Shown piece after piece: positions 40,489-53,281 of a DNA stretch of 64,000 bases. A model generated the notes under the pieces. That model saw only the letters and a program-made list of their open reading frames with translations. It did no database searches and was not told where the DNA came from. Within the stretch, counting starts at the first letter, position 1, and every line of letters starts with the position of its first letter. Position numbers and translations under genes: made by a program. The stretch is from Athalassotoga saccharophila (GTDB lineage Bacteria; Thermotogota; Thermotogae; Mesoaciditogales; Mesoaciditogaceae), in NCBI RefSeq assembly GCF_009936215.1, contig NZ_AP019551.1, positions 1,822,708 through 1,886,707 on the forward strand, given 5' to 3'.

Positions 40489-40852
40489 TCAATAGCCGCA
40501 ATTTGGTATTATGGTAAATTGAAATGTAATCACGATTTTTCCCGGCGCGACCCACGATTCTATGCTTTTAGAAGCAAATATATCGAGTTCTCCTGAATAT
40601 TGATCTGAATCTTTTGGCTGTAATGTCAGTACATTCTCATCGTAATTATCGCTGTATTTGAGTATCATACCGTTTGGAAGACCTGGCGGATTTATTCCGG
40701 ATGTAAGACTGCCTCCATTAACACCTGTTGAAACGGTAACTGTTATTGTTGACATATTTGATTGGACAGCAAGTTTTGCAAGTAAGACCCTATCAGTATT
40801 ATAAGCATTTGTTAGAACATTCCCTGTTACACCAGAAAAAGAAGCATTGTAA
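40489..40852 (-). pseudogene. C-terminal half of a small secreted protein gene split by an IS element
   Basis: Codes for about 120 residues (from YNASFSGVTGN to FTIIPNCGY). It matches the C-terminal half of the intact paralogue at 49744: LAKLAVQSNMSTITVTV against LAELSVKSNMSTIGVTV, and a shared YSDNY and FTI-P-N ending. Its upstream part lies at 42697-43244 beyond the IS. Removing the IS and one 6-bp duplication rejoins the frame as ATATSYNASFSG, the exact family motif. Without its signal peptide this half should not be exported. Confidence 0.85.
40847..40852. repeat. Left target-site duplication (TTGTAA)
   Basis: TTGTAA directly precedes the IS left end and is repeated directly after the right end at 42697-42702. 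Confidence 0.88.
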
Positions 40853-42696
40853 CCCACTTTCCGCAGATAAAAAACAGTTTTTTGGATTTATTTGAAACTC
40901 ATGTTTTAAAATTGAAAGTGGGAAATGATTAGAGTCAGTAATAGCCAAAGAAGCATTTGCTGTAACCTTGACGCACATCACAAAGATTATACCACTATTT
41001 ACCGTTTCGGATAGAGTCCATTGATTTATGCCTTTCTGCTGCTATGATCTATTTGAAAAAGACAGCGGAGGTAGAAAAATGGAAATCACTACAAAGCAAC
41101 TTGATCACCATGGACTTGTGGCTGGGACATTTGATAAATTTGAAATGGGAGAGGTCATTGAAAAGAGAATACCGAAAGTCCGGAACTTCAATCTTTCAAC
41201 GTCTGCGATAATAAAAGCGATGATCATACTCGGGCTTGGTTTTGTTGACAGGAGATTGTACTTTGCAGGGAGTTATTTTGAGAACTGGGATGTTGAGAAA
41301 CTTTTAGGCGAAGGAACTAAACCGGAAGATCTTAACGATGACGCTCTCGGCAGAGTGCTTGACAAGATTTATGATTACGGTCCAACGGAATTATTTCAAG
41401 AGATAGCGGCGCACGCTTTGAACAAACTTGAAATGGATGTTCACCTCGTTCACACCGATACCACAAGCGTGAGTGTAAGCGGCAATTACGAGATGGAAGA
41501 CGGGACGAATGGTTTTAAGATCACCTTCGGTCATTCGAAAGATCACAGACAGGATTTGAAACAATTCGTGATAGGGATGGTTGTAAATCAGCATGGAATG
41601 CCGATGTTTGCCAAAACATACAACGGGAACGAATCGGATAAAGAGTCGATCAAAGAAATGGTCAAAGCAATCAGGAAGAACATTGACAAAGACAAGAAAG
41701 TCTATCATGTGGCAGACAGTGCTTTCTACACTGCGGAAAACATTAGCGAACTCAGAACAACATACTGGATAAGCCATGTGCCGTCTACGATAAAAGAGGC
41801 TGAAGAAATGCTAAATAAAGAAGTTGAATTTCGTCCGACCAAAATTGAAGGATATGAAGTGTATTCCGAAATAAGCAATTACGGCGGGATAAAACAAAAA
41901 TGGATAATGGTGAATTCGAAATATCTTAAAGAACAGGAACTGAAAACATTTGACAGGCATTTGAAAAAAAGCAAGACAGAAGCGGAAAAGTCATTGAAAA
42001 AGACTGTGACGAAAGAACGGTATTTTTGTTCTGAAGACGGAATAAACAAGTCCAGACAATGGATGGAAGCTCATCCTCTTTTCAAATACGACAAGTTTGA
42101 GATAAAGAGCGTAAGAGTCAGAACTGACGGGAAAAGAGGAAGGCCTAAAGATGGGGATCCGACGATAGAAATGTATGAAATAGATGCTGAGATAGGTCTG
42201 AATGAAGAAGCGGTTGAAAAGGCCAAAGCAAAACTCGGAAGATTCATACTTTCAACGAACGACATTGAACTTGAAGATGAAAAAGTGCTCGAATATTACA
42301 AAAACCAGACAACGGTCGAAAGAGGATTCAGGTTTTTGAAAGACAAAAGTTTCGGAGTAAGCGATGTGTATCTGAAAAAGCCCGGACGGATTCAGGCACT
42401 TGTGATGATAATGGTATTGACGTTATTGGTGTACTCGCTTTCGGAATGGGAAATAAGGCGCACATTGAAAGAGACAGGGCAAACATTTCCGAATCAGTTG
42501 AAAAAGCCGACAAACAGGCCGACATTCAGGTGGATATGTCAGAACTTCATGAACATAACCGTTGTAAATGTGGTTACAGATGGGCAAACAACCACACAGA
42601 TAGCGAATTTAAAAGATTTGCAGATCAAAGTGATAAGACTTTTGGGAGTTGAATATGAAAAATATTATTTCTGATCAAAGATGTGCGAAATGTGGG
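40853..42696 (+). mobile_element. IS1634/IS4-type insertion sequence, 1844 bp
   Basis: The element runs from CCCACTTTCCGCAGAT at the left to the inverted counterpart of CCCACATTTCGCACAT at the right; 13 of these 16 positions agree. It carries one transposase gene and is flanked by a 6-bp direct repeat TTGTAA. About 226 bases of non-coding DNA precede the transposase. The perfect duplication and intact transposase point to a recent insertion. Confidence 0.9.
41079..42674 (+). CDS. IS1634/IS4-type DDE transposase
   Basis: 531 residues from ATG 41079, which has GCGGAGG upstream. Acidic catalytic residues are seen as VHTDTTSVSV (near 127), VADSAFYT and YKNQTTVERGFRFLKD, the Y-x2-R/RxE-x6-K-like signature of IS4-related transposases. 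The RGRPKDGDP region before it is a typical spacer insertion of IS1634-like proteins. Full length with no frameshift, so it may be active. Confidence 0.87.
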   Translation: MEITTKQLDHHGLVAGTFDKFEMGEVIEKRIPKVRNFNLSTSAIIKAMIILGLGFVDRRLYFAGSYFENWDVEKLLGEGTKPEDLNDDALGRVLDKIYDYGPTELFQEIAAHALNKLEMDVHLVHTDTTSVSVSGNYEMEDGTNGFKITFGHSKDHRQDLKQFVIGMVVNQHGMPMFAKTYNGNESDKESIKEMVKAIRKNIDKDKKVYHVADSAFYTAENISELRTTYWISHVPSTIKEAEEMLNKEVEFRPTKIEGYEVYSEISNYGGIKQKWIMVNSKYLKEQELKTFDRHLKKSKTEAEKSLKKTVTKERYFCSEDGINKSRQWMEAHPLFKYDKFEIKSVRVRTDGKRGRPKDGDPTIEMYEIDAEIGLNEEAVEKAKAKLGRFILSTNDIELEDEKVLEYYKNQTTVERGFRFLKDKSFGVSDVYLKKPGRIQALVMIMVLTLLVYSLSEWEIRRTLKETGQTFPNQLKKPTNRPTFRWICQNFMNITVVNVVTDGQTTTQIANLKDLQIKVIRLLGVEYEKYYF

Positions 42697-42702
42697 TTGT
42701 AA
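42697..42702. repeat. Right target-site duplication (TTGTAA)
   Basis: Direct copy of the TTGTAA at 40847-40852, immediately after the GTGGG right end of the IS. Confidence 0.88.
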
Positions 42703-43244
42703 GATGTTGCGGTTGCTATATAGTTTTGATTTTTATATACGATTGTCAGATCTATAAAATATTTCCATACATTGGAGTCTTGTCCTGGATTTCCAGTTGC
42801 TAAAGTTATCACTTCATTGTAAGTTCCTGATGATGTTCCGACAGGTATATATATGGATATAAAAATGTTATTTGAAGTATTCGACGTGACTATTTTACTG
42901 ACAAAATTTTGACTGCTGGCCGTTGTCCACCAATTAAAATTACCGGGCAAAGCGTTATTAGGTAGTGTCAACTGAATCGTGGTCGTTCCAGATTTTGAAA
43001 TATTTACCGTTAAATAATAAGTACCCTTATCATGTATATTATTGTCTAAAACACTCACGCTTGATCCAAGATCCAAGAAATAATTCGTATTCGTAGAACC
43101 GAGTAATTGATTTTGCAAATTTTGACCAGGCGAATTGGAGTTGAAACTCTTTTGAATTTCTTCCTGTGCGTTAAGCCAGTTATCCCCAAAAGATAATATC
43201 GCCATAAGACTTATTAAGACCAAAAGTGCATATATTTTTCTCAA
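42697..43244 (-). pseudogene. N-terminal half of the IS-split secreted protein gene
   Basis: From TTG 43244 (GGGGTGG lies 6 bases upstream) a signal peptide RKIYALLVLISLMAILSFG leads into a beta-rich Ig-like module (GTYYLTVNISKSGTTTIQLTLP and IPVGTSSGTYNEVITLATGN), then YIATATSY, where the IS interrupts it. The remaining frame reads into the IS and stops after PHFAHL. This protein was the only family member with an extra N-terminal module of about 150 residues. The truncated product could still be exported. Confidence 0.82.
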
Positions 43245-43246
43245 AC

Positions 43247-44758
43247 TCAACCACCCCAATTCATTTCAAACTTGAAAGTGTTTGAAATCGGAGAATAAAG
43301 TACTCTCAAAATTTCTCCATAGTAAACTAAACCAATCGAACCGTAAAGATCGAAATTGTTACTTCCCGTCAATTGAATGTGATTGTATGAGAATTCTCCT
43401 CCCAAAACAAGATTGTCCATTTTGTATTCAAGATTTCCGTTGTATTGAAGATGAAAATTCGCCAGTGACGTTAAAGATGCGCTTACAGTTAAAACGCCAG
43501 AAGAGAGAAAATTCGACTTGAAATCAGGATATTGAACGAGTGCAATCTCTCCTTTGTAATTGTTGACGTTGGACAAATTCGAAAAGATAGGTCCTCCTAT
43601 CAAAAGATATCCCTGAAGTCCTATTGCAACCGGGCTCGATATGCCAACGTATATTCCAGATGGAATATTTTGGCCAGCGCTGATCTTAAGTCCAAAATGA
43701 TCGATATTTCCAAGGGCTTTGATTGTGTTATTATTTCCGTTGTAGTCCATAACAAGATTATATGTCCTTACTTTTGGGCCCATATCCATCAAAGTGAAAA
43801 TAGATGTTGAAGGAGCGCTTCTGACTGTAGAAACCGTAACTATGAAATTGGAATTTCCGCTTCTAAAAGAGGCAACGGCCATTTTATTATCCCCCACTGT
43901 GACCGTTGAATTCGTGTTGATCGTATAGGAAGGAGTACCCTGAACGGTACCCGAACTTACATTCTGCACCGATAGATTAAAATTAAGATTTGCCTGAGTC
44001 GCGCCAATTGAATTGACAAGCACATTCATGCTAAGACTGGAAGAGGGAAGATAATTTGCCTTGAATTGTATATTCTTTCCAGCACCTGCAAGCGCAAAAC
44101 CATTTCCCTCAAATTTCATGTAATTTGAGTATTTCTGAAAAAATTCAAAATTCGTGCTCTTAAATTGCCCCGGCATGATATAACTCGAGTAAAAGTCATT
44201 TTGCCACATGGCGTAATTGCTATTGGACATCGTATAAATGTTGTATACGACATAAACATTCGTTCCCGGAACATCGACCGATTTCACGGTTGACAAAACC
44301 TTTTCGTAAACGCTGTTCGGTCCAAAGAAGAAAAGATAAGGATAAGACTGTGCATACGTTATGTAGTTCGAATAAGGCTGCAAAAAGGCCATGACATTTG
44401 ATGACGAAAGATATTTAAGTTCTATTACACGTTCTGAATAACCGGCCGCTTTCATAGACATGGCAGACATGTTTGTTCCCACGAAGTAAACTCCATCGTA
44501 ATTGAAATAAAACAACCCGTATCCTTTACATATAGTTGAAAGTGCCTGATCCAAAGTCACATTGTTGAGATTCATCGTGATGTTGCCGCTTACAGTTGGA
44601 TCGACGACTATCGAAACGTTGAATGCCATCGATACATCTTGAAAAGCACTTTGAAGACTCTCCTGACTGAAAACGAAAGACGATGTCATGCCAGACGCGT
44701 AAGCCAAAACGGCAACGGAAATTAAAAGTGCAAGGGAAATCAGGATGATCTTTTTCAT
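43247..44758 (-). CDS. Divergent secretin-like protein with C-terminal extension
   Basis: 503 residues from ATG 44758 (GGGG 6 bases upstream). A signal peptide is followed by an STN domain (FSQESLQSAFQDVSMAFNVSIVVDP then NNVTLDQALSTICKGYGLF), an N1-like domain and a region parallel to the next protein (VYVVYNIYTMSNSNYAMWQNDF against IVVQVNVLEMDKSVLDSWNMSL). The secretin signature VPLLGDIPLIGxLF is missing, and about 170 extra residues of beta structure end in KFEMNWGG. I read it as a paralogue of the adjacent secretin that lost the channel lip and gained a new domain. It may be a co-assembling or adaptor subunit. Confidence 0.7.
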   Translation of the reverse strand: MKKIILISLALLISVAVLAYASGMTSSFVFSQESLQSAFQDVSMAFNVSIVVDPTVSGNITMNLNNVTLDQALSTICKGYGLFYFNYDGVYFVGTNMSAMSMKAAGYSERVIELKYLSSSNVMAFLQPYSNYITYAQSYPYLFFFGPNSVYEKVLSTVKSVDVPGTNVYVVYNIYTMSNSNYAMWQNDFYSSYIMPGQFKSTNFEFFQKYSNYMKFEGNGFALAGAGKNIQFKANYLPSSSLSMNVLVNSIGATQANLNFNLSVQNVSSGTVQGTPSYTINTNSTVTVGDNKMAVASFRSGNSNFIVTVSTVRSAPSTSIFTLMDMGPKVRTYNLVMDYNGNNNTIKALGNIDHFGLKISAGQNIPSGIYVGISSPVAIGLQGYLLIGGPIFSNLSNVNNYKGEIALVQYPDFKSNFLSSGVLTVSASLTSLANFHLQYNGNLEYKMDNLVLGGEFSYNHIQLTGSNNFDLYGSIGLVYYGEILRVLYSPISNTFKFEMNWGG

Positions 44759-44759
44759 T

Positions 44760-45914
44760 TTAATCCCCTGCCTTTTCAACTGTTATAACCACCACGATCT
44801 CTTTTTCAACTTTTACAACGTTTTGCTGGGTAAAAAGAAAGCCTATCAAAGGTATATCTCCAAGTAATGGTACCTTGGAATTTTGAGTTTGATAAGTCTG
44901 AAAATTGGCCCCTCCAACTGCCACCGTATTACCAGCCTGTGTTGTAAAAGAGGTTGTCAATGTGTTGGTTATCGTGTTTGGTACACCGGAAGAGGTTTGC
45001 TGCTGCGATGCTCCTGTTAAGGTTTCTGTCAAATTCACAAGCACAACGCCTGAGGCAGTTATCGTTGGAGTTACAGAAAGGTTTATCCCTACCGGCACGC
45101 TCAAAGTCTGCTGACCTGTTGATGTTGTATAGAGATAAGTTGTGGTTGTCACTGAATTCACAGTTCCCGTTTGTCCGCTTTGAATTCTGAGTTTGGGATC
45201 TGCAAGCATCTTTATCTCTCCATTTGAGACGAGTGCATTTATATTGGAGAGTATCGAAAGGTTATTTATTATGAATGCTGCGTTTATCGCTCCGTTAAGT
45301 ACGTTGAACGTTGTGCCGTTTGAAGAATTCGACGGCTGCGAATACTGCAAACTCATATTCCAACTGTCGAGGACAGATTTGTCCATTTCGAGCACGTTAA
45401 CCTGTACGACGATGTCTTTGGGAGGAACATCAACTGATTTTATCAAGGATATGATGGATGATTTTATACTGTCAGGCGCACCTATCATGATAAGGTAAGG
45501 AGAGGTGGTCGAAGAAAAGACATAAGGCTGCATGATTGCCGGCAGATAACTGAAAAGCGTCTTCGAATTTATGTATTTCAATTGATACGGTGTCATCTGT
45601 GCGAGGTAAAGAAAACTATTCGTTGCCGGGTTTGGAGTTCCTACGAAATAAACACCAGGCTGGATCTCTTTCCATGCGTATCCTCCCGACATGAGCATAA
45701 GGTTTAGCGCTTGAGAGATGCTCACATTGTTAAGGTTAAGCGTTATAATACCACCTATCGTCGAATCTGTAAGTATCGTTATACCCTCCTGAGTCGCGAG
45801 ATCGTTTAAGGCCTGTGTGAGTGGTTCTTGAAAGAAAGATATAGTTACATTCTGGGCAAAAACGGCAGATATGACTATAAAGATTATAAAAGAAAGCACC
45901 ATGAATTTTTTCAT
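44760..45914 (-). CDS. Compact secretin (type II/IV pilus family outer-membrane channel)
   Basis: 384 residues, much shorter than GspD or PilQ. Signal peptide (KKFMVLSFIIFIVISAVFA), STN domain (VTISFFQEPLTQALNDLATQEGITIL), one N1/KH-like domain (about 85-160), then the secretin core with SGQTGTVNSVTTTTYLY, AGNTVAVGGANFQTY and the hallmark KVPLLGDIPLIGFLFTQ. Secretins form multimeric gated outer-membrane channels. It follows the Ig-like protein by 14 bases and is part of the sigma-54 operon from 48102. No secretion ATPase or platform protein is in the window. Confidence 0.87.
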   Translation of the reverse strand: MKKFMVLSFIIFIVISAVFAQNVTISFFQEPLTQALNDLATQEGITILTDSTIGGIITLNLNNVSISQALNLMLMSGGYAWKEIQPGVYFVGTPNPATNSFLYLAQMTPYQLKYINSKTLFSYLPAIMQPYVFSSTTSPYLIMIGAPDSIKSSIISLIKSVDVPPKDIVVQVNVLEMDKSVLDSWNMSLQYSQPSNSSNGTTFNVLNGAINAAFIINNLSILSNINALVSNGEIKMLADPKLRIQSGQTGTVNSVTTTTYLYTTSTGQQTLSVPVGINLSVTPTITASGVVLVNLTETLTGASQQQTSSGVPNTITNTLTTSFTTQAGNTVAVGGANFQTYQTQNSKVPLLGDIPLIGFLFTQQNVVKVEKEIVVVITVEKAGD

Positions 45915-45928
45915 TCTATCCCCTCTTC

Positions 45929-47488
45929 TCAGTTAATCTTTTGCTGTACAGAAACGGTTGCCGTATTTTTGAAAGTTTGATCATTGAAGTAGTACATGAC
46001 GAGTCTTACAGTATAGCCCTTTGAAACCTTGAACGGTAATGTCATAGTTCTGTAAACCGTTGCACCTGAGTACAAAATACCGATATTCAATATCGCAGGT
46101 GAACTATTAACAGCATGATCTGTGGCGTCCGTTATGAAGATCTCACCAGCGTAATAAGTCATCGAATTTCCGGTATTTTTAACGTCTACTGATATATCAA
46201 CATTCGATCCGTCAGGAGTAACTTTAAAGTTTTCAAGGGCAATAGATTTAGTCAACTTTCCAACGGACAAGATGATTGGGATCTCCACCGTTGTTGCCTC
46301 TCCTCCAGAGACAGATTCATTTAACTTTAAAAGCGCATAATATTCCCCGCTTGCAGGAGCAGTCGAAGGACCTTTTCCGGCAATGACGACATTTCTGATC
46401 GAATAAGGATACAAAATCATAGGATCGGGATAAACCTTTAAATTCCCAAACAAATTCTGATCGAGTGGCGCCTCCACCACAAGACCTTGATAAGATTGTT
46501 TCATTCCGACCAATTCGAATTTAACATTCGAAATCCTGTAGTCAAGACTTTGAATGTTGAAATTCGCATTAAGAAAGGCATTCGGAACCTGAAACGGTAT
46601 GTTTATTATATATTTATCCGTACTCAAAAACGGGAATGGGCTTATCTTCTGATCTGTAACCTTCATGCTGAAACTTTGGCTTGTCATGATGCCATTTCCA
46701 AGATTTGCGGAAAGCAAAATTCTGTAATCCCCATTTGGAACAATTCTGTTGATTGGAATCCATATCGTTCTTGTTATGCCCGGAAAGGCAAGCGTTTCCT
46801 GCCTTGCGAGGCTTGTAGCGTAAACAATCTGATGAAGTGTATCTGATACAAGTCTAAACTGACCATCGAGTCCTATAACGGAATTTCCAGTGTTGGTGTA
46901 ATCCATCTCGAGAACGTAAGGTATACCAGAATTTTTAAGGCCGCTTGGGAAATTGGACGGTAAATTTTCTGAAGTGGTGCTGTAGAGTTTAACTCCTTTG
47001 AACTGCGCCTGATAGGTCATAGGCATGTTATCTATTTTAAGAGTTATAAGGACTGCCGTATTCACCCCGACTATTATGTTGCCAGTTTGATTGGGTGCAG
47101 TGTTATTTATAAGTATCGTTGCAAAGTATTCTCCCGACACGTTAGATGGAATGGTTATCGTGAAAGGCACCTGAATAGTTTGACCGGCACTGATTACAGG
47201 AGCCGTTGATGGAGTCGTTATCCAAGGTGCGCATGAATGGGTGTAAGATGCAAAGGTTGTCATACTGTAATTTCCATTCGAATCAATGTAAAAATCTCTA
47301 AAGGCAATAACGGCTGTCAATTGCACATTAGATTGATTTGTTATCGATGTATTAAAAGTTATTTGACTTCCAGGAGCACCATGCAAATTCTCTACAAGAG
47401 GCGTAACGTAAAGACCTCCTATGGCAAAAGAGATAAAAGGGACAAAAAACAAAACAATGAAAAACCCCAAAATATGCTTTAAATTCAC
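45929..47488 (-). CDS. Large secreted protein with Ig-like (NEW3/chaperone-like) repeats
   Basis: 519 residues from GTG 47488, chosen because AGGAG lies 5 bases upstream. A signal peptide (ILGFFIVLFFVPFISFA) precedes GGLYVTPLVENLHGAPGSQITFNTSITNQSN, which looks like the first strand set of PapD-chaperone or DUF916-type domains. Further Ig-like units follow: IPSNVSGEYFATILINN, LEMDYTNTGNSVIGL and VDISVDVKNTGNSMTYYAG. No C-terminal anchor is present. It may hold or escort the small secreted proteins or line the periplasm for the secretin; function is inference. Confidence 0.65.
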   Translation of the reverse strand: MNLKHILGFFIVLFFVPFISFAIGGLYVTPLVENLHGAPGSQITFNTSITNQSNVQLTAVIAFRDFYIDSNGNYSMTTFASYTHSCAPWITTPSTAPVISAGQTIQVPFTITIPSNVSGEYFATILINNTAPNQTGNIIVGVNTAVLITLKIDNMPMTYQAQFKGVKLYSTTSENLPSNFPSGLKNSGIPYVLEMDYTNTGNSVIGLDGQFRLVSDTLHQIVYATSLARQETLAFPGITRTIWIPINRIVPNGDYRILLSANLGNGIMTSQSFSMKVTDQKISPFPFLSTDKYIINIPFQVPNAFLNANFNIQSLDYRISNVKFELVGMKQSYQGLVVEAPLDQNLFGNLKVYPDPMILYPYSIRNVVIAGKGPSTAPASGEYYALLKLNESVSGGEATTVEIPIILSVGKLTKSIALENFKVTPDGSNVDISVDVKNTGNSMTYYAGEIFITDATDHAVNSSPAILNIGILYSGATVYRTMTLPFKVSKGYTVRLVMYYFNDQTFKNTATVSVQQKIN

Positions 47489-47517
47489 TTTCTCTCTCCT
47501 CTCATTTATGCTCAAAA

Positions 47518-48102
47518 TTATCTGTTAAAAACTATATTTTGAGTATTTCCGTAATTCGTTATGAATTGGCCAATATTCTCGTAAAGCACCGTAAATTCAA
47601 CCGGAACCGTGTATTGAGATCCCTTAGTCCACTGTTCGACCTGAGAATTAAGCGCTTCGACGTTAACGTTCAGCGTGTAATAACCATGATCGCTTTTGGA
47701 TAAAGTCGAAACAACGACAAAATAAATGTTGTTTAAATAGTAAGCCGAATTGTAAATCTGGCCATTACTTTGTATATCCGAATTTGACATAAAACTCATC
47801 ACATTTGATTTATTGACATTTACGTATACAAAGATATTTTGAAAGTTCAATTTTATGTTGAGCGTTGCAAGTGTTACGAGGAAATCTGTGTTTATGTTCA
47901 TCGCAGGTATTATCGGATCAAAAGCAACCGGATGAACAGAGGTGCTAAGCGCTGTTGTCTGAGCCTCCATGCATGGCATTACTTCCACAACAGAGGTAAC
48001 GCTTAAGGACGATTTATAACATTCCTCTGCCGTAATTGTGCTATTTGCAAAGATTACAGATGAAGTAAAAATGATCATAATCAATACTATTATATTTTTC
48101 AT
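47518..48102 (-). CDS. Small secreted protein of the local paralogous family
   Basis: 194 residues from ATG 48102 with AAGGAGCG upstream. A signal peptide (KNIIVLIMIIFTSSVIFA) precedes EECYKSSLSVTSVVEV, which aligns with ATCQQASLSVNSMIGI of the 49039 and 49744 proteins. Residues LVTLATLNIKLNFQNIFVYVNV match their LLAELSVKSNMSTIGVTV strand pair. It is first behind a sigma-54-type promoter whose predicted start lies about 26 bases upstream. Confidence 0.65.
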   Translation of the reverse strand: MKNIIVLIMIIFTSSVIFANSTITAEECYKSSLSVTSVVEVMPCMEAQTTALSTSVHPVAFDPIIPAMNINTDFLVTLATLNIKLNFQNIFVYVNVNKSNVMSFMSNSDIQSNGQIYNSAYYLNNIYFVVVSTLSKSDHGYYTLNVNVEALNSQVEQWTKGSQYTVPVEFTVLYENIGQFITNYGNTQNIVFNR

Positions 48103-48139
48103 GATTCGCTCCTTACACAATTTCTTATCAACAAACATG

Positions 48140-48155
48140 AGCAGTATTCATGCCA
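48140..48155 (-). promoter_or_regulatory. Sigma-54-type promoter (-24/-12) for the secretin operon
   Basis: Minus strand TGGCATGAATACTGCT: the GG at -24 and GC at -12 have the required spacing, with one change from the TTGC consensus. It lies 38-53 bases before ATG 48102, and paired half-sites lie about 80-120 bases further upstream. Confidence 0.75.
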
Positions 48156-48198
48156 AAATCTTAATTTTTTTTGACCACGATTTTTCAACCATACAAGC

Positions 48199-48221
48199 AA
48201 AAAATTCCTGAGATTCAGGAA
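48199..48221 (-). terminator. Terminator of the 48288 gene
   Basis: TTCCTGA / TCAGGAA 7-bp stem with a 3-base loop, followed on the minus strand by TTTTTT. Confidence 0.72.
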
Positions 48222-48234
48222 CGAATAAATCATC

Positions 48235-48275
48235 TTGGGAACTAATGATGCAAAATATGTCTCTATAGTTCCCAA
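48235..48275. promoter_or_regulatory. Paired activator half-sites upstream of the secretin-operon promoter
   Basis: TTGGGAACT (48235-48243) and AGTTCCCAA (48267-48275) form perfect 9-bp inverted arms separated by 23 bases, about 80-120 bases upstream of the -24 element. The same half-site recurs at 50549 and 50601. The position is that of an enhancer site for a sigma-54 activator. Confidence 0.72.
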
Positions 48276-48287
48276 ATGAATTTTTAT

Positions 48288-48851
48288 TCAATAATAATTA
48301 TGTGGAATTATCACAAATGTAAAGGCGAGGTTGTCATTCTGATCAAATTGTAAGGCTTTTGTAGAGGCAACGTAGAGATAACCACTGTGCCCGGTCTTAC
48401 CCGTGCTAAATGGAAGATCGAGAATCGATGGAGGATTGTCCGTCCTTATGTCATATACAGAATTTCCTGAAATGTTGGGGTAATAGTAAGATATATCCCT
48501 GATATTTGATTGATTCGAGATAGAAATAGAAATTCCTATAACAGAGGTCGCATCAGATTCAACGTTAAGACCGGCAAGGACAACAAAATTTTTTATGGAA
48601 TCAAAGCAATTTCCATTGTAAAAAATATCAATCAATATTTTATTGAATATATCAGGTAAGGTTGAATTAAAAACAGTTGCAGTCGCCAGAAATCCCTGAT
48701 CCATATAAAAATTTGGATCGTAAAGATGAGGAACTTCATTTTCAGTCTTAAAAGTAAGTTTTCCTCCTTCAAAAACCGGCCCCATGTTATCTGCCAAAAC
48801 AATCATAGAAAGTGCAATCAAAGATATTATAATCACGAGAATTCTTTTCAT
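48288..48851 (-). CDS. Small secreted protein, divergent family member
   Basis: 187 residues. Signal peptide (KRILVIIISLIALSMIVLA), then MDQGFLATATVFNSTL, which corresponds to IEQGYVATATSYNASF of the paralogues. A central strand pair FVVLAGLNVESDATSVIGISISIS and a C-terminal LAFTFVIIPHNYY complete the pattern. It ends in an aromatic residue, as do most of the family. A weak sigma-54-like site lies just upstream. Confidence 0.62.
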   Translation of the reverse strand: MKRILVIIISLIALSMIVLADNMGPVFEGGKLTFKTENEVPHLYDPNFYMDQGFLATATVFNSTLPDIFNKILIDIFYNGNCFDSIKNFVVLAGLNVESDATSVIGISISISNQSNIRDISYYYPNISGNSVYDIRTDNPPSILDLPFSTGKTGHSGYLYVASTKALQFDQNDNLAFTFVIIPHNYY

Positions 48852-48876
48852 ATCAATCCCCCCAAAGTTTACATCT

Positions 48877-48912
48877 CGCTAAGATTATCCCAAGAATGTG
48901 TTTAAACATTCT
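48877..48912 (-). promoter_or_regulatory. Weak sigma-54-like site and adjacent inverted repeat
   Basis: TGGGATAATCTTAGCG (48892-48877) keeps GG-N10-GC spacing but differs from consensus at several positions. AGAATGT / ACATTCT arms (48893-48912) adjoin it. Either a weak promoter of the 48288 gene or chance. Confidence 0.3.
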
Positions 48913-48995
48913 GAAAAGATCAAGAAATATAAATTAAATTATTTGCACGGTTTATTACAAAAATGAAAATAAGGATGAAAACGATGAGGAAAAAT

Positions 48996-49020
48996 AAAAA
49001 GGACACTTCAGTGTCCTTTT
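48996..49020 (-). terminator. Terminator after the 49039 gene
   Basis: GGACAC / GTGTCC stem with a TTCA loop, flanked by AAAAA and TTTT, 18 bases beyond the stop. Confidence 0.85.
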
Positions 49021-49038
49021 AAATTTTAACTTTAATTC

Positions 49039-49692
49039 TCAGAATGTGTTCTGAGGACTTATCAAAAAAGTTGTTCTTATATAATAATCGCCAGGCTTCA
49101 CGAACTCTCCCCAGTGTGTATCATACGTATCAAGAACTACGTCAACTGCACCTACATAATAAGACGAAGTAGGCAATAGATTAACTAAAAAGGTAAGCGC
49201 CTGTGGAGCAGATGAAAAGTTCCCCGTTCCCAAAAGGTTATTACTGGCATTGTTATTATAGAATATATAGTAAGAGGAATAATTCGATAGTAACGACCCA
49301 GATGCGTTGGAGGGTTGTGTTATAGTTATTGTAACATTTATATTTTGAGCATTTGATTTAACTGTCAACTCAGATATCAGGATCCCCTGATTGATTGACA
49401 AACTATCATATTGTGTATACTTACCATTTATCAATCTTTGTGAGATCTCTGGACCAGTTGTACAATTACATATTGGACATGGAGCGCCGCAGAATGAAGC
49501 ATTATAAGACGTAGCAGTGGCCACATAACCTTGCTCAATACCTATCATAGAATTAACAGATAACGAGGCTTGCTGACATGTTGCCCCTTGAGTTGCTTGT
49601 TTGTAATATCCTGCGGTATTTGCCAACGCCATGACACCTAACGCCAACATCGCAATTACAATGAGAATCAAAATCTTCTTCGTTACGATCAT
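49039..49692 (-). CDS. Small secreted protein, duplicate of its upstream neighbour
   Basis: 217 residues. Signal peptide (KKILILIVIAMLALGVMALA), then a segment nearly identical to the 49744 protein (ATCQQASLSVNSMIGIEQG and YVATATSYNASFCGA), then a diverged C-terminal part with an added Cys-rich PCPICNC stretch and GILISELTVKSNAQNINVTI. It ends TTFLISPQNTF. The unchanged N-terminal third with a changed C-terminal part suggests duplication followed by divergence or partial conversion. Three cysteines close to each other could bind metal or form disulfides. GAGGGGAG precedes ATG 49692. Confidence 0.75.
   Translation of the reverse strand: MIVTKKILILIVIAMLALGVMALANTAGYYKQATQGATCQQASLSVNSMIGIEQGYVATATSYNASFCGAPCPICNCTTGPEISQRLINGKYTQYDSLSINQGILISELTVKSNAQNINVTITITQPSNASGSLLSNYSSYYIFYNNNASNNLLGTGNFSSAPQALTFLVNLLPTSSYYVGAVDVVLDTYDTHWGEFVKPGDYYIRTTFLISPQNTF
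49484..49594. repeat. Duplicated segment, copy 1 (111 bp)
   Basis: Identical over 111 bp to 50078-50188. It encodes the conserved mature N-terminal part of the two tandem secreted proteins. Similarity continues with a few changes to the start codon, then stops abruptly on the 3' side of the genes. Confidence 0.88.
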
Positions 49693-49701
49693 CTCCCCTC
49701 T

Positions 49702-49730
49702 AAAAAGATAAGGCGGAGATCCGCCTTATC
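49702..49730 (-). terminator. Terminator/attenuator between the tandem secreted-protein genes
   Basis: GATAAGGCGGA / TCCGCCTTATC stem of 11 bp with a 2-base centre, followed by TTTTT on the minus strand. It lies between two same-strand genes only 51 bases apart, so it may favour the first gene. Confidence 0.82.
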
Positions 49731-49743
49731 TGAGAAGTTTTTA

Positions 49744-50277
49744 TCAGAAATTATTTTTAGGGGTTATTGTGAAAGTTGTTGTTACTTGATAAGTGCCGGC
49801 AGTAACCCATTGAGGAATTGAAGATGGCGCGTAAACTTCAAGAGTACCTTCATAAGGTGTATTTGGGTATCCACCATTTTGAAGAGTTAGACTTCCATTA
49901 GAGTAATTATCGCTATAATTTATGTAAGAACTTAAAGAATAATTTGAGAAGTTGGGGAAATTACTTGAAAATGCAACCGTAACACCTATAGTAGACATAT
50001 TTGATTTAACGCTGAGTTCGGCCAAGAGCACTTGACTATTCAGGCTCACGTAATGTCCTGTCAATGGATTTCCACTTGCGCCGCAGAATGAAGCATTATA
50101 AGACGTAGCAGTGGCCACATAACCTTGCTCAATACCTATCATAGAATTAACAGATAACGAGGCTTGCTGACATGTTGCCCCTTGAGTTACTTGTTCATAA
50201 TATCCTGCGGTATTTGCCAACGCCATAACGCCTAACGCCAACATCGCAATTACACCAAGAATCAGAACTTTTTTCAT
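49744..50277 (-). CDS. Small secreted protein, first gene of the sigma-54-controlled locus
   Basis: 177 residues. Signal peptide (KKVLILGVIAMLALGVMALA), then the family core: ATCQQASLSVNSMIGIEQG, YVATATSYNASFCGA, LLAELSVKSNMSTIGVTV, a YINYSDNYSNGSLTLQ stretch and the ending TTTFTITPKNNF. All beta-rich and small, so a secreted structural subunit is plausible. Not a prepilin, as no G-FxxxE site is present. It has its own consensus sigma-54 promoter, a leader of about 147 nt, GGGAGG before ATG, and a terminator directly after, which suggests the highest expression of the locus. Confidence 0.75.
   Translation of the reverse strand: MKKVLILGVIAMLALGVMALANTAGYYEQVTQGATCQQASLSVNSMIGIEQGYVATATSYNASFCGASGNPLTGHYVSLNSQVLLAELSVKSNMSTIGVTVAFSSNFPNFSNYSLSSYINYSDNYSNGSLTLQNGGYPNTPYEGTLEVYAPSSIPQWVTAGTYQVTTTFTITPKNNF
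50078..50188. repeat. Duplicated segment, copy 2 (111 bp)
   Basis: Identical to 49484-49594; the two copies are 594 bases apart. Confidence 0.88.
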
Positions 50278-50434
50278 ACTTTCTTACCTCCCTTAAAATT
50301 TAGAATTTTCAATTTTGTGAAACTAAAAACCTTCAAAAACACAAAGCGATGTGAAACCCGACTATGAATTCCCTCTCAAATAATTTTTTCCTTACCGACC
50401 TCCTTCAAAAGATTTTTAACCGTCAATTCACATA

Positions 50435-50450
50435 AGCAAGATGTGTGCCA
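50435..50450 (-). promoter_or_regulatory. Consensus sigma-54 promoter for the 49744 gene
   Basis: Minus strand TGGCACACATCTTGCT fits TGGCAyr-N4-TTGCw throughout. The expected start is near 50424. Half-sites at 50549-50609 lie about 100-160 bases upstream. Confidence 0.82.
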
Positions 50451-50547
50451 AAATTTTGGGATGTCAAAGATTTTATTTTTTTGATGATCAACTTATTAAA
50501 GAGTTATTTATTTAAGCCAGATGTTTAAGGGCTTCATGATATCAGAA

Positions 50548-50609
50548 TTTGGGAACTGACAAGACATCTTAGGATCGATTGTTCCAGTAACGTCGCATCC
50601 GTTCCCAAA
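50548..50609. promoter_or_regulatory. Shared activator sites between divergent sigma-54 promoters
   Basis: TTGGGAAC (50549-50556) and GTTCCCAA (50601-50608) are inverted half-sites, with a third partial GTTCC at 50581. They lie between the minus-strand promoter at 50435 and the plus-strand promoter at 50660, at enhancer-like distances from both. The rest of the 446-bp intergenic region holds no gene I can support. Confidence 0.7.
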
Positions 50610-50659
50610 AGTTAAAGAACGTTCAAGATTGAATGGTGTCTTTCCGATTATTCTCTATA

Positions 50660-50675
50660 TGGCATGAAACCTGCT
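50660..50675 (+). promoter_or_regulatory. Sigma-54-type promoter for the degenerate activator gene
   Basis: Plus strand TGGCATGAAACCTGCT keeps the GG/GC spacing and shares TGGCATGAA and CTGCT with the secretin-operon promoter. It lies 48 bases before ATG 50724, which has AGGAGGAATTC as ribosome binding site. Confidence 0.75.
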
Positions 50676-50723
50676 ATCAAAATTCAGAGAAAAATAAGAA
50701 GGACATGACAATAGGAGGAATTC

Positions 50724-51842
50724 ATGAACGCATTTTTTTTAGGCTTCGATTTTAAAGATTCAACAGAGATAAAAATGAGATCGACCGAGATTCACAAAAT
50801 AAACGGACTGTCCCAATTAAAAAAGTTCGAAGAAGAAAAGGTGCTGTGCATAAACGGATCTTCCTCCAGCCCAATCGATGACACAAGTTTGAGATTCATC
50901 GTAGAAGAGGTAAAAAAGGAAAAAACACATCTCGTCGTAATAAGGGATGATAAAAACCACTTCAAAGAATTCGAAAGAGAAATAGCGTTTATAGATGGGC
51001 CAAGCCTTAAACCTAATGAGATAATTGCAAATTTCGTCAGCATGGTAAGGTCTTCAATGCAAAAATTCGTTGGCGAAAGCAGAAAAATAATGGAGTTAAA
51101 GTCAAAGATATTTAACGCCTGCTTTTCGGATAGAAACTTTTTCATAACAGGCGAGACTGGATCTGGAAAGCATTTACTCGCAGAGGTTGTACACAAAGCC
51201 GGTCTAAGATCAGAAGGGCCTTTTGTCCTTATTGGCAGAGATTTAAAATTAGAAAACAATTTCGATCTTGAAAGAGGTCATCTTTTTATAGAGGAGATCG
51301 ATTCCATTACAAAAGATTTTAAAGATAAGATATGCGATCTCGTCAAAAAAAAGAGGTACAGGATCATCTCAGCGACTAAAATTGCCGAAAAAGACGAAGG
51401 CTTTTCGTGTTTCGACGAGGTTGTGCTTAAAATACCTCCTCTGAGGGAAAGAAAGTGTGATATACCAATCTTGACAGACCATTTCATAAAAGATTTCGGA
51501 TATGACTTTCATTTTGAAGAACTTCCATTTGAAATGCAACAAAGATTACTCGAATATACATATCCTGCAAATGTGAAGGAACTAAAGAATATAATAAACG
51601 ATTACATCTTTGGTCCACATCATGAAAGAGATTTCCAAGAGATATTCATATCTAATTTTATATCAAACACGATTTTTGAATTGATGAACAAAACCCCGGG
51701 CAATTCAAATTTACTCAAATCGGAGATAGAAAATTACTTCAGGAATGACTCTGTCAAAGAGTTGATCAAAAAATTCAAATGGGAGGAGGGGACTTTTTCA
51801 AATATCTTCGATAGTTACACAAAAAAATTCAAGGATAATTAA
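50724..51842 (+). CDS. Degenerate sigma-54 activator lacking the GAFTGA loop
   Basis: 372 residues. An N-terminal domain of about 110 residues resembles that of the next protein. The AAA+ core keeps Walker A GETGSGKHLLAEVVHKAG, a changed Walker B (HLFIEEIDSI), the arginine-finger region IPPLRERKCDIP and sensor II YPANVKELKN. The segment that should hold ESELFGH...GAFTGA is deleted: it jumps from GRDLKLENNFDLE to the Walker B. The C-terminal Fis-like helices are poor. It probably cannot contact sigma-54 itself, and may modulate its paralogue by hetero-oligomer formation. It sits behind a sigma-54-type promoter. Confidence 0.78.
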   Translation: MNAFFLGFDFKDSTEIKMRSTEIHKINGLSQLKKFEEEKVLCINGSSSSPIDDTSLRFIVEEVKKEKTHLVVIRDDKNHFKEFEREIAFIDGPSLKPNEIIANFVSMVRSSMQKFVGESRKIMELKSKIFNACFSDRNFFITGETGSGKHLLAEVVHKAGLRSEGPFVLIGRDLKLENNFDLERGHLFIEEIDSITKDFKDKICDLVKKKRYRIISATKIAEKDEGFSCFDEVVLKIPPLRERKCDIPILTDHFIKDFGYDFHFEELPFEMQQRLLEYTYPANVKELKNIINDYIFGPHHERDFQEIFISNFISNTIFELMNKTPGNSNLLKSEIENYFRNDSVKELIKKFKWEEGTFSNIFDSYTKKFKDN

Positions 51843-51894
51843 AATTTTCCATCTTCTTAAAAGTGTTTAAATTTAATTTAATACAAAAGAAATA

Positions 51895-51903
51895 TGCTAT
51901 AAT
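51895..51903 (+). promoter_or_regulatory. Extended -10 (sigma-70-like) promoter for the active sigma-54 activator
   Basis: TGC-TATAAT with the hexamer at 51898-51903, about 31 bases before ATG 51935. A clear -35 is not seen. This would give housekeeping expression of the activator, unlike its paralogue. Confidence 0.55.
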
Positions 51904-51934
51904 AATATCCTTTGGCTGCAGGGGGTGAGAAAAG

Positions 51935-53281
51935 ATGGAATTTCTTTTTGTTGGTTTTCCTTCGATAGATCAGATAAAAAAGATAAACACTTCGGATCGC
52001 ATCATTTCGTGCACGGATATAAATAAAATTGATAATTACATTAACGAACAGAGAAGAATAATCTTCGTCAACTCCTCGAGTGATTCCACGATAGATAAAA
52101 CAAAATTGAACAATTTTGTAAAAAGCGTTAAAAAGACCTTTTCGACAAAGATAATCATGATAACAGATGAGACTGAAAAGCAAAACTCTTCCTTTGGAAT
52201 TTTGAAATTGTACAAATCACCATCCGAAAGTAATGAGAAAGTATGCATTGATTTTGGCAAAAAGGTAAGATCGGCTCTCGATTCGATTGTTGGAGAAAGT
52301 TCTCACATCAAAGAGGTAAGAAGAAAGATATTTGACACCATTTTTTCGGATCCACATGTTTTGATATTTGGTGAGACCGGAACTGGCAAAAATCTTCTCG
52401 CCAGTTCAATTCACAAAATAAGTTTAAGGAAAGGTCCGATGATCTCTTTGAACCTTACAACATTGCCAGAATCTCTTCTCGAAAGTGAATTATTCGGTCA
52501 TGCAAAGGGAGCATACACGGGAGCAAGTGTTACAAGGGAAGGACTTATAGGTCAGGCACACACGGGCCATTTCTTTCTCGATGAGATAGGAGAACTGCCG
52601 ATAGAAATTCAAGCGAAGTTGCTCAACGTTATAGAAGATGGCAAGTATTACATGGTTGGAAGTTCTAATGCAAAAGAGATAGACGTAAAGTTCATTTCAG
52701 CAACAAACAGAGATAAAAATTTTTTGAGAAAGGACTTGCTATTCAGGCTTTCGGAAGAAACTATAGAATTGCTTCCTTTAAGAAATAGAAAGGAAGACAT
52801 CCCATATCTTGTAGATTTTTTCCTTAAACAACTTGATTACGATATCACATTCAACGATATGCCAGAAGAGGTAAGATCTAAATTGTTATCTTACAATTAT
52901 CCTGGCAACATTAGAGAACTGCAAAATATAATAAAAAGGTATCTTTCAGGTGGTATACTCGATCTCTCGGCCGATATGTCTTTCCATTTTAATACTCCAA
53001 CCATAAATGCCAACGAATATAAATTCATAGACAATTCTATTCTTGAAATCGTTGAATTGTCTATAAAGAACAGAACGATAATGCCTCTTCTGGAGTTTAA
53101 GGACAAGATTTCCTCGAAATTTGAAAAAGAATATGTAAGTCAAGTTTTAAGAAATTTCAAATGGGACAAACAACTTGTCGCGAATCAACTTGGCATATCT
53201 TACAGATACCTCAACAAATTAATAAAAAAGTATAGCCTCGACAGACGCACGGTAAACAACAAAGAGAAAAACGATCAATAA
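51935..53281 (+). CDS. Sigma-54-dependent transcriptional activator (AAA+, Fis-type HTH)
   Basis: 448 residues. The N-terminal 115 residues lack a phospho-Asp receiver pattern I can recognise. The AAA+ domain is complete: GETGTGKNLLASSIH, ESELFGHAKGAYTGA (the sigma-54 contact loop, GAYTGA variant), HFFLDEIGELP, ATNRD, FRLSEETIELLPLRNRKEDIP and YNYPGNIRELQN. The C-terminus has a Fis-type helix-turn-helix (FKWDKQLVANQLGISYRYLNKLIKKY). It should bind half-sites and open sigma-54 promoters. It is the most likely regulator of the adjacent secretion locus. GGGGGTGAG precedes the ATG. Confidence 0.9.
   Translation: MEFLFVGFPSIDQIKKINTSDRIISCTDINKIDNYINEQRRIIFVNSSSDSTIDKTKLNNFVKSVKKTFSTKIIMITDETEKQNSSFGILKLYKSPSESNEKVCIDFGKKVRSALDSIVGESSHIKEVRRKIFDTIFSDPHVLIFGETGTGKNLLASSIHKISLRKGPMISLNLTTLPESLLESELFGHAKGAYTGASVTREGLIGQAHTGHFFLDEIGELPIEIQAKLLNVIEDGKYYMVGSSNAKEIDVKFISATNRDKNFLRKDLLFRLSEETIELLPLRNRKEDIPYLVDFFLKQLDYDITFNDMPEEVRSKLLSYNYPGNIRELQNIIKRYLSGGILDLSADMSFHFNTPTINANEYKFIDNSILEIVELSIKNRTIMPLLEFKDKISSKFEKEYVSQVLRNFKWDKQLVANQLGISYRYLNKLIKKYSLDRRTVNNKEKNDQ

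Follow-up and report, generated by a model that had tools for sequence, protein, structure and literature searches.

The window analysed here, a 64,000-nucleotide stretch of the Athalassotoga saccharophila genome (G000:C1:1822708-1886707; genome of 2.04 Mb in 3 contigs), contains between positions 40,489 and 53,281 a compact locus for small secreted proteins and a predicted outer-membrane machinery. On the minus strand, the order of transcription is s2, s3, s4 and s5 (small secreted proteins), IG (a tandem immunoglobulin (Ig)-like protein), SEC (a short secretin), BAR (a barrel-type protein) and, finally, a split gene for a two-domain small protein; on the plus strand beside this block stand EBP1 and then EBP2 (Table 1). 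Gene calls and profile searches agree here with an earlier annotation made from the letters alone (the sequence-only reading), which had described a minus-strand block adjoining two plus-strand genes of the sigma-54-activator type. The same holds for its statement that secretion ATPase, platform protein and prepilin are missing: none was found in the window block by gene calls and Pfam/NCBIfam profile searches, and the flanking open reading frames (ORFs) listed at other loci of this kind are likewise devoid of a recognised ATPase, platform protein or prepilin. An Rfam search of 38-56 kb returned zero RNA families.

Table 1. Features of the locus, with two protein families from related loci; positions are those of the window, or of the named locus where an L number precedes them.
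Feature	Position	Strand	Basis and remarks
s2, first gene of the block; TATSYN motif, ends NNF	49744-50277	-	gene call; beta-sandwich model
s3; TATSYN motif, ends NTF, CPxCxC insert	49039-49692	-	gene call
s4; TATVFN motif, ends NYY	48288-48851	-	gene call
s5, small secreted protein without ATAT motif	47518-48102	-	start reset to 48102
IG, secreted tandem Ig-like protein, WxLIP/DUF916-related	45929-47488	-	profile and PDB matches
SEC, short secretin of 384 aa, STN and secretin domain, phage pIV-like length	44760-45914	-	Pfam, PHROG and PDB profiles
BAR, secretin N-terminal (STN/N0-N1-like) region and C-terminal stretch with outer-membrane beta-barrel ending	43247-44779	-	STN E=2.6e-6
N-terminal part of split secreted protein	42697-43259	-	ORF 42675-43259 terminates within the insertion element
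IS1634-family insertion element, transposase 41028-42674	40853-42696	+	NF033559 E=3.2e-117; ends and target duplication
C-terminal Ig-like domain of split two-domain small secreted protein	40489-40852	-	ORF called 40489-40857
EBP1, degenerate sigma-54 activator-like ATPase, without GAFTGA loop and without helix-turn-helix	50724-51842	+	profile and motif check
EBP2, sigma-54 activator with GAYTGA loop and C-terminal helix-turn-helix	51935-53281	+	profile and motif check
Sigma-54 promoter P1 TGGCACACATCTTGCT, upstream of s2	50435-50450	-	-24/-12 scan; same place in L025
Sigma-54 promoter P2 TGGCATGAATACTGCT, reads into s5-IG-SEC-BAR-split gene	48140-48155	-	-24/-12 scan
Sigma-54 promoter P3 TGGCATGAAACCTGCT, upstream of EBP1	50660-50675	+	-24/-12 scan
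Enhancer-like inverted pair TTGGGAAC-N25-GTTCCCAA, upstream of P2	48235-48275		exact-pair search
Enhancer-like inverted pair TTGGGAAC-N44-GTTCCCAA, between divergent P1 and P3	50549-50608		exact-pair search
Terminator-like intrinsic hairpin after s4	48204-48222	-	hairpin scan
Terminator-like intrinsic hairpin after s3	48997-49020	-	hairpin scan
~160-aa protein, copies	L026:2825-3310, L027:11018-11509, L028:8527-9036, L029:491-976		one copy scanned, no Pfam match
~460-aa lipoprotein-like protein, copies	L032:6349-7734, L034:5283-6671, L035:6300-7691

The combination recurs as a conserved cassette throughout the phylum. Among 103 Thermotogota genomes, 54 carry the IG gene, and a short secretin lies directly downstream of it on the same strand at 57 of the 65 IG places (49 genomes), the remaining places being mostly contig ends, fragments or weak partial hits. 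Nearly all loci read also have a barrel-type gene and genes for small Sec-type proteins around IG-SEC. The genes therefore do co-occur in relatives, the point on which the sequence-only reading had staked itself beforehand. A paralogous locus of the same genome, B (L022:6256-12846), shares the order small-IG-SEC-BAR with the window locus; both cassette types recur through the family with unchanged gene order, and in a secretin tree the split between types A and B is fully supported. Regarding the adjacent regulator, sigma-54 activators are found in this order (10 genomes searched) and BTAD or OmpR-type proteins in other orders, indicating a conserved cassette with exchangeable control. A scan of genome contigs with the secretin hit a single close relative and, besides it, a pilus secretin from Caldithrix. 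Two side observations were made: a ~460-aa lipoprotein-like protein is conserved between the small genes inside B-type cassettes and missing from the B locus of this genome, and a metagenome genome labelled 'Thermotoga sp.' (L004, DYLQ01000020.1) has a locus about 90% identical in its secretin to that of the window, which places it in the Mesoaciditoga group rather than in Thermotoga.

IG corresponds to the large Ig-like secreted protein of the sequence-only reading, and profile searches give it a recognisable relative. PF06030 (WxLIP_PGBD) is matched by 10 of 12 IG members (best 3.4e-8), and the nearest solved structure in the PDB is EfmWxLIP1 (E=0.0014). Across the phylum, all 16 matches to PF06030 fall within IG genes, with positive Thermotoga maritima and Lactococcus lactis controls; they lie above the cut-off in 7 cassette genomes and are weaker in 7 further ones, and the window's own copy, whose GTG start at 47488 fits the homologues better than the TTG at 47515, scores below the Pfam cut-off. 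No PapD Pfam match was obtained among the 12 IG members, and IG proteins finish in soluble beta-strand-like sequence rather than in a C-terminal transmembrane helix. By these profile matches, IG is a distant homologue of WxLIP, a protein proposed to bind or hold small WxL surface proteins in Gram-positives through a strand whose insertion into WxL is predicted (PMC10599100).

The claim of two secretin-type proteins stands for one of them. SEC is a true secretin, matching PF00263 at E=4.3e-29 and STN at E=9.7e-7 in Pfam and, over its full length, the M13 protein IV family (PHROG 1012, E=4.7e-33). It is shorter than PilQ or GspD in the PDB secretin comparison, and PilQ is its best-scoring family among those with solved structures. 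Elsewhere in the genome, a long PilQ-type secretin is encoded at 1174306, and two T2SSE-family proteins, a PilB-type ATPase and a second match that we take for PilT, are located far from the block, at 981635 and 991680. The other presumed secretin, BAR, retains the STN/N0 region: a secretin-cassette profile covers its residues 1-221 only (E=1e-26), and no Pfam secretin domain was found in it. Its C-terminal end shows alternating residues, and the cassette homologues mostly finish in W or F, the residues with which outer-membrane barrels end. From these sequence features, BAR is best read as an outer-membrane partner and not as a second secretin.

The small proteins had been described as five, all sharing an ATATxYN core and an aromatic ending. 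The motif is confirmed in four genes (49744, 49039, 48288 and the split gene) and not in five, because two of the proteins counted are halves of one gene; s5 (47518) has neither the motif nor the aromatic end. Its start was placed at 48102, since the called start at 48138 falls inside the promoter region. The first 68 residues of s2 and s3 are nearly identical, suggesting a recent duplication. The CPxCxC insert of s3, located after the TATSYN motif and missing from the other copies, might bind a metal or form a disulfide. Profile searches of the small proteins against Pfam, NCBIfam and PDB gave no significant match, nor was any convincing prepilin family match obtained. The model of s2 is an Ig-like beta-sandwich with an N-terminal extension, predicted at low to middling confidence. 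Weak, sub-significance structural matches (Foldseek, VIA-align) include the pilus and thread subunits CfaB, HdaB, PsaA, SafA and Saci_0406; the matches are generic Ig-like, and therefore no family was assigned.

The two ORFs at the end of the operon (40489-40857 and 42675-43259), previously counted as separate small proteins, are, as read from the sequence, two halves of a single last gene broken by an IS1634-family element that the sequence-only reading had not recorded. The element is flanked by a 6-bp target duplication, TTGTAA, at 40847-40852 and 42697-42702, and its inverted ends are imperfect. Rejoining the empty site restores a single frame, ...NYIATATSYNASFSGVTGNVL..., that runs through an ATATSYN motif; furthermore, a relative carries one uninterrupted 317-aa gene matching both halves (L025:14043-14996). 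The insertion interrupts the cassette and is not part of the system.

Sigma-54-type promoters, already proposed from the letters, are borne out against controls. Sites scoring at least 19.5 number 4 in the window and 0.4 in shuffles, and the strict pattern has 9 matches genome-wide against 1 for the reversed-pattern control; five of the nine fall in the window locus and the paralogous locus taken together, and two others lie inside genes. In most related loci, perfect or near-perfect sites are located 5' of the first small genes. The repeated half-sites of the sequence-only reading likewise persist as exact TTGGGAAC-N-GTTCCCAA pairs, which occur twice in the 64 kb, both times just upstream of sigma-54 promoters, and never in 50 shuffles. 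When one mismatch is allowed, single TTGGGAACT half-sites are as frequent as expected by chance, so that the exact pairs alone carry information. A search of the relatives' loci did not recover the TTGGGAAC pair; the enhancer sequence consequently either evolves quickly or is genus-specific. The number of terminator-like hairpins in the region is not above chance, and those after s3 and s4 suggest that small proteins and machinery are transcribed separately. RpoN is present in 10 of 10 genomes of the order, so that the elements of a sigma-54 operon, as predicted from sequence, are all found here: RpoN, an activator with a GAFTGA-type loop (EBP2), -24/-12 promoters and enhancer sites. EBP1, retained in the sister genome (L025:6951-8120), is possibly an anti-activator or a hexamer modulator. 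Sigma-54 control of the cassette is specific to this order.

Three further observations accompany these promoters. Another of the nine strict matches is a perfect sigma-54 promoter at L099:3341 (G000:C1:1649840), just 5' of a fabF-type gene, the first of a fatty-acid synthesis cluster, and on this account envelope lipids and surface proteins may be coupled through the sigma-54 regulon. Between P1 and the start of s2 lies a 5' leader of ~150 nt (50278-50434) with no Rfam match. In other genera, the A cassettes begin, behind their sigma-54 promoter, with a gene for a conserved ~160-aa protein, which is missing from the window locus.

On balance, we consider it somewhat probable that the locus is a copy of a cassette, specific to the Thermotogota as far as tested, by which small surface proteins are exported and assembled without a motor. 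Gene content, co-conservation, promoter and enhancer architecture, the relationship of IG to WxLIP and the absence of motor genes from the loci are established at sequence level; the secretion route, the chaperone role of IG, the role of the barrel, polymerisation and the role of EBP1 are what we infer. The small all-beta proteins would be made with Sec-type signal peptides and exported by Sec. In the periplasm, the tandem-Ig protein would act as chaperone or holder, lending a strand or a docking face to the incomplete Ig-like small proteins, and SEC would provide the pore in the outer membrane or toga, with BAR as its outer-membrane partner, anchor or gate. Leaving through this pore, the small proteins would form polymers or coat the surface, with folding and assembly instead of ATP as the driving force, as in chaperone-usher pili. 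In this order, EBP2 and sigma-54 would switch the cassette on from P1, P2 and P3 via the paired TTGGGAAC sites, and EBP1 would probably modulate EBP2. The fold matches of the modelled s2 are consistent with such export and serve for nothing further. As for the regulated surface-filament or matrix export system proposed earlier, its co-conserved, motor-less and, in this order, sigma-54-controlled character stands, whereas a filament or matrix is still something that we infer. A stronger form of the proposal is put forward tentatively, as a serious possibility rather than a probability: a new class of outer-membrane export system in Thermotogota, with a secretin as usher, a WxLIP-like Ig chaperone, an STN-barrel partner, ATPase-free surface fibres of small Ig-fold proteins and an ancestry shared with Gram-positive WxL complexes.

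Several points weigh against the export and assembly cassette. About half of the Thermotogota have no Ig gene, and the cassette consequently cannot serve the whole phylum as its secretion route. PilQ and GspD are similar to SEC at profile level, so that the pilus machinery might share the use of SEC; moreover, SEC may work for components other than the small proteins, and a pore as large as the one expected would not suit simple usher-like handling. The small proteins diverge fast, their phylum-wide homology rests on weak profile hits, and their Sec-type signal peptides were assigned by eye. Regarding the structural models, that of s2 is weak (pLDDT 60.7), with matches mostly to generic Ig folds (best VIA Z 6.0), and the AlphaFold model of IG was built from two sequences and reaches a pLDDT of only 39.5.

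The alternative that survives best, itself unlikely, is a diderm WxL-like complex in which IG and the small proteins make up a static coat bound to peptidoglycan or toga, with SEC and BAR as an outer-membrane anchor or gate instead of an export pore. It would account for the homology of IG to WxLIP and for a composition like that of WxL clusters, with several small proteins beside a single Ig protein (PMC10599100). However, the genome contains zero WxL domains (PF13731; Lactococcus lactis control positive), IG has no C-terminal transmembrane helix, and one gene order is maintained across the whole phylum. To our knowledge, moreover, the characterised secretins are all export channels, which also speaks against a static coat.

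More doubtful still is an accessory cassette of a type IV pilus or DNA-uptake system, in which SEC would be an alternative PilQ powered by PilB/PilT encoded elsewhere and the small proteins would be pilus-associated adhesins. The top score of PilQ for SEC and the two distant T2SSE-family ATPases fit this view. In the genome that we take to be T. maritima MSB8, an IG-SEC-barrel arrangement lies at ~1.128-1.131 Mb, and TM1117 is probably its cassette secretin, judged by coordinates. Both TM1117 and TM0088 of Thermotoga are listed as PilQ in a competence context (PMC5637354), which again favours a pilus role. Nevertheless, the Athalassotoga genome encodes a long PilQ-type secretin of its own, SEC is linked to IG and not to pilus genes at 57 of 65 IG places, no prepilin family is matched convincingly by the small proteins, and SEC is far shorter than PilQ, too short for AMIN and repeated N-domains. 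A remnant or relative of a filamentous phage, with a pIV-like secretin and small secreted coat proteins, is highly improbable and was dropped: despite the full-length match of SEC to the M13 protein IV family, the locus has no Zot/pI, replication or integrase genes, the small proteins are modelled as signal-peptide beta-sandwiches and not helical coat proteins, and the cassette is conserved chromosomally in 49 genomes with a stable gene order.

The export and assembly cassette, occurring in about half of the phylum including Thermotoga, offers a concrete, testable candidate for the missing protein-export route of the Thermotogota. In a survey of diderm genomes, the Thermotogae were the sole diderm clade without any known protein secretion system, and toga-specific systems were guessed at (PMC4793230). 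No published description of the cassette was found in the open-access full texts searched, subscription papers being outside that search. The linkage of a Gram-positive WxLIP family to an outer-membrane secretin bears on envelope evolution between monoderms and diderms, and some Thermotoga 'PilQ' annotations deserve revisiting: discussion of TM1117 has treated it as a secretin of the competence pilus and not as a member of an Ig and small-protein cassette.

Among known systems, the type II secretion system and the type IV pilus share with the cassette the presence of a secretin (PF00263), but the cassette has no linked ATPase, platform protein or prepilins, and membership of either therefore fails. 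In agreement with the sequence-only reading, it is not a normal cluster of these kinds, since motor genes are absent from the loci examined and the pilus machinery is encoded elsewhere. PilQ, GspD and phage pIV secretins resemble SEC in combining a secretin with an STN/N0 domain, its length and layout being closest to pIV; unlike them, SEC lacks a linked ATPase, platform protein, prepilin or pI/Zot, and its linkage is to a WxLIP-like protein and a barrel partner. Archaeal threads (Saci_0406) and other donor-strand filaments show a weak fold resemblance to s2, below significance, but those archaea have neither secretin nor outer membrane. Archaic and alternative chaperone-usher systems correspond, in the roles assigned here to the cassette parts, through Sec-exported Ig-like subunits, a periplasmic Ig-type partner, an outer-membrane channel and no cytoplasmic motor; in contrast, the channel of the cassette is a secretin and not a FimD usher (PF00577 above the cut-off in 0 of the 103 Thermotogota genomes, with a positive E. 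coli control), and IG has no PapD match. The WxL/WxLIP (DUF916-DUF3324) clusters likewise encode a related tandem Ig protein beside several small secreted all-beta proteins, whereas the cassette has no detectable WxL domain, its IG is longer and carries no transmembrane anchor, and an outer-membrane secretin and a barrel protein set it in a diderm envelope. Newness as a system holds only if the export role is confirmed; the parts belong to known families, and their combination matches no known system tested.

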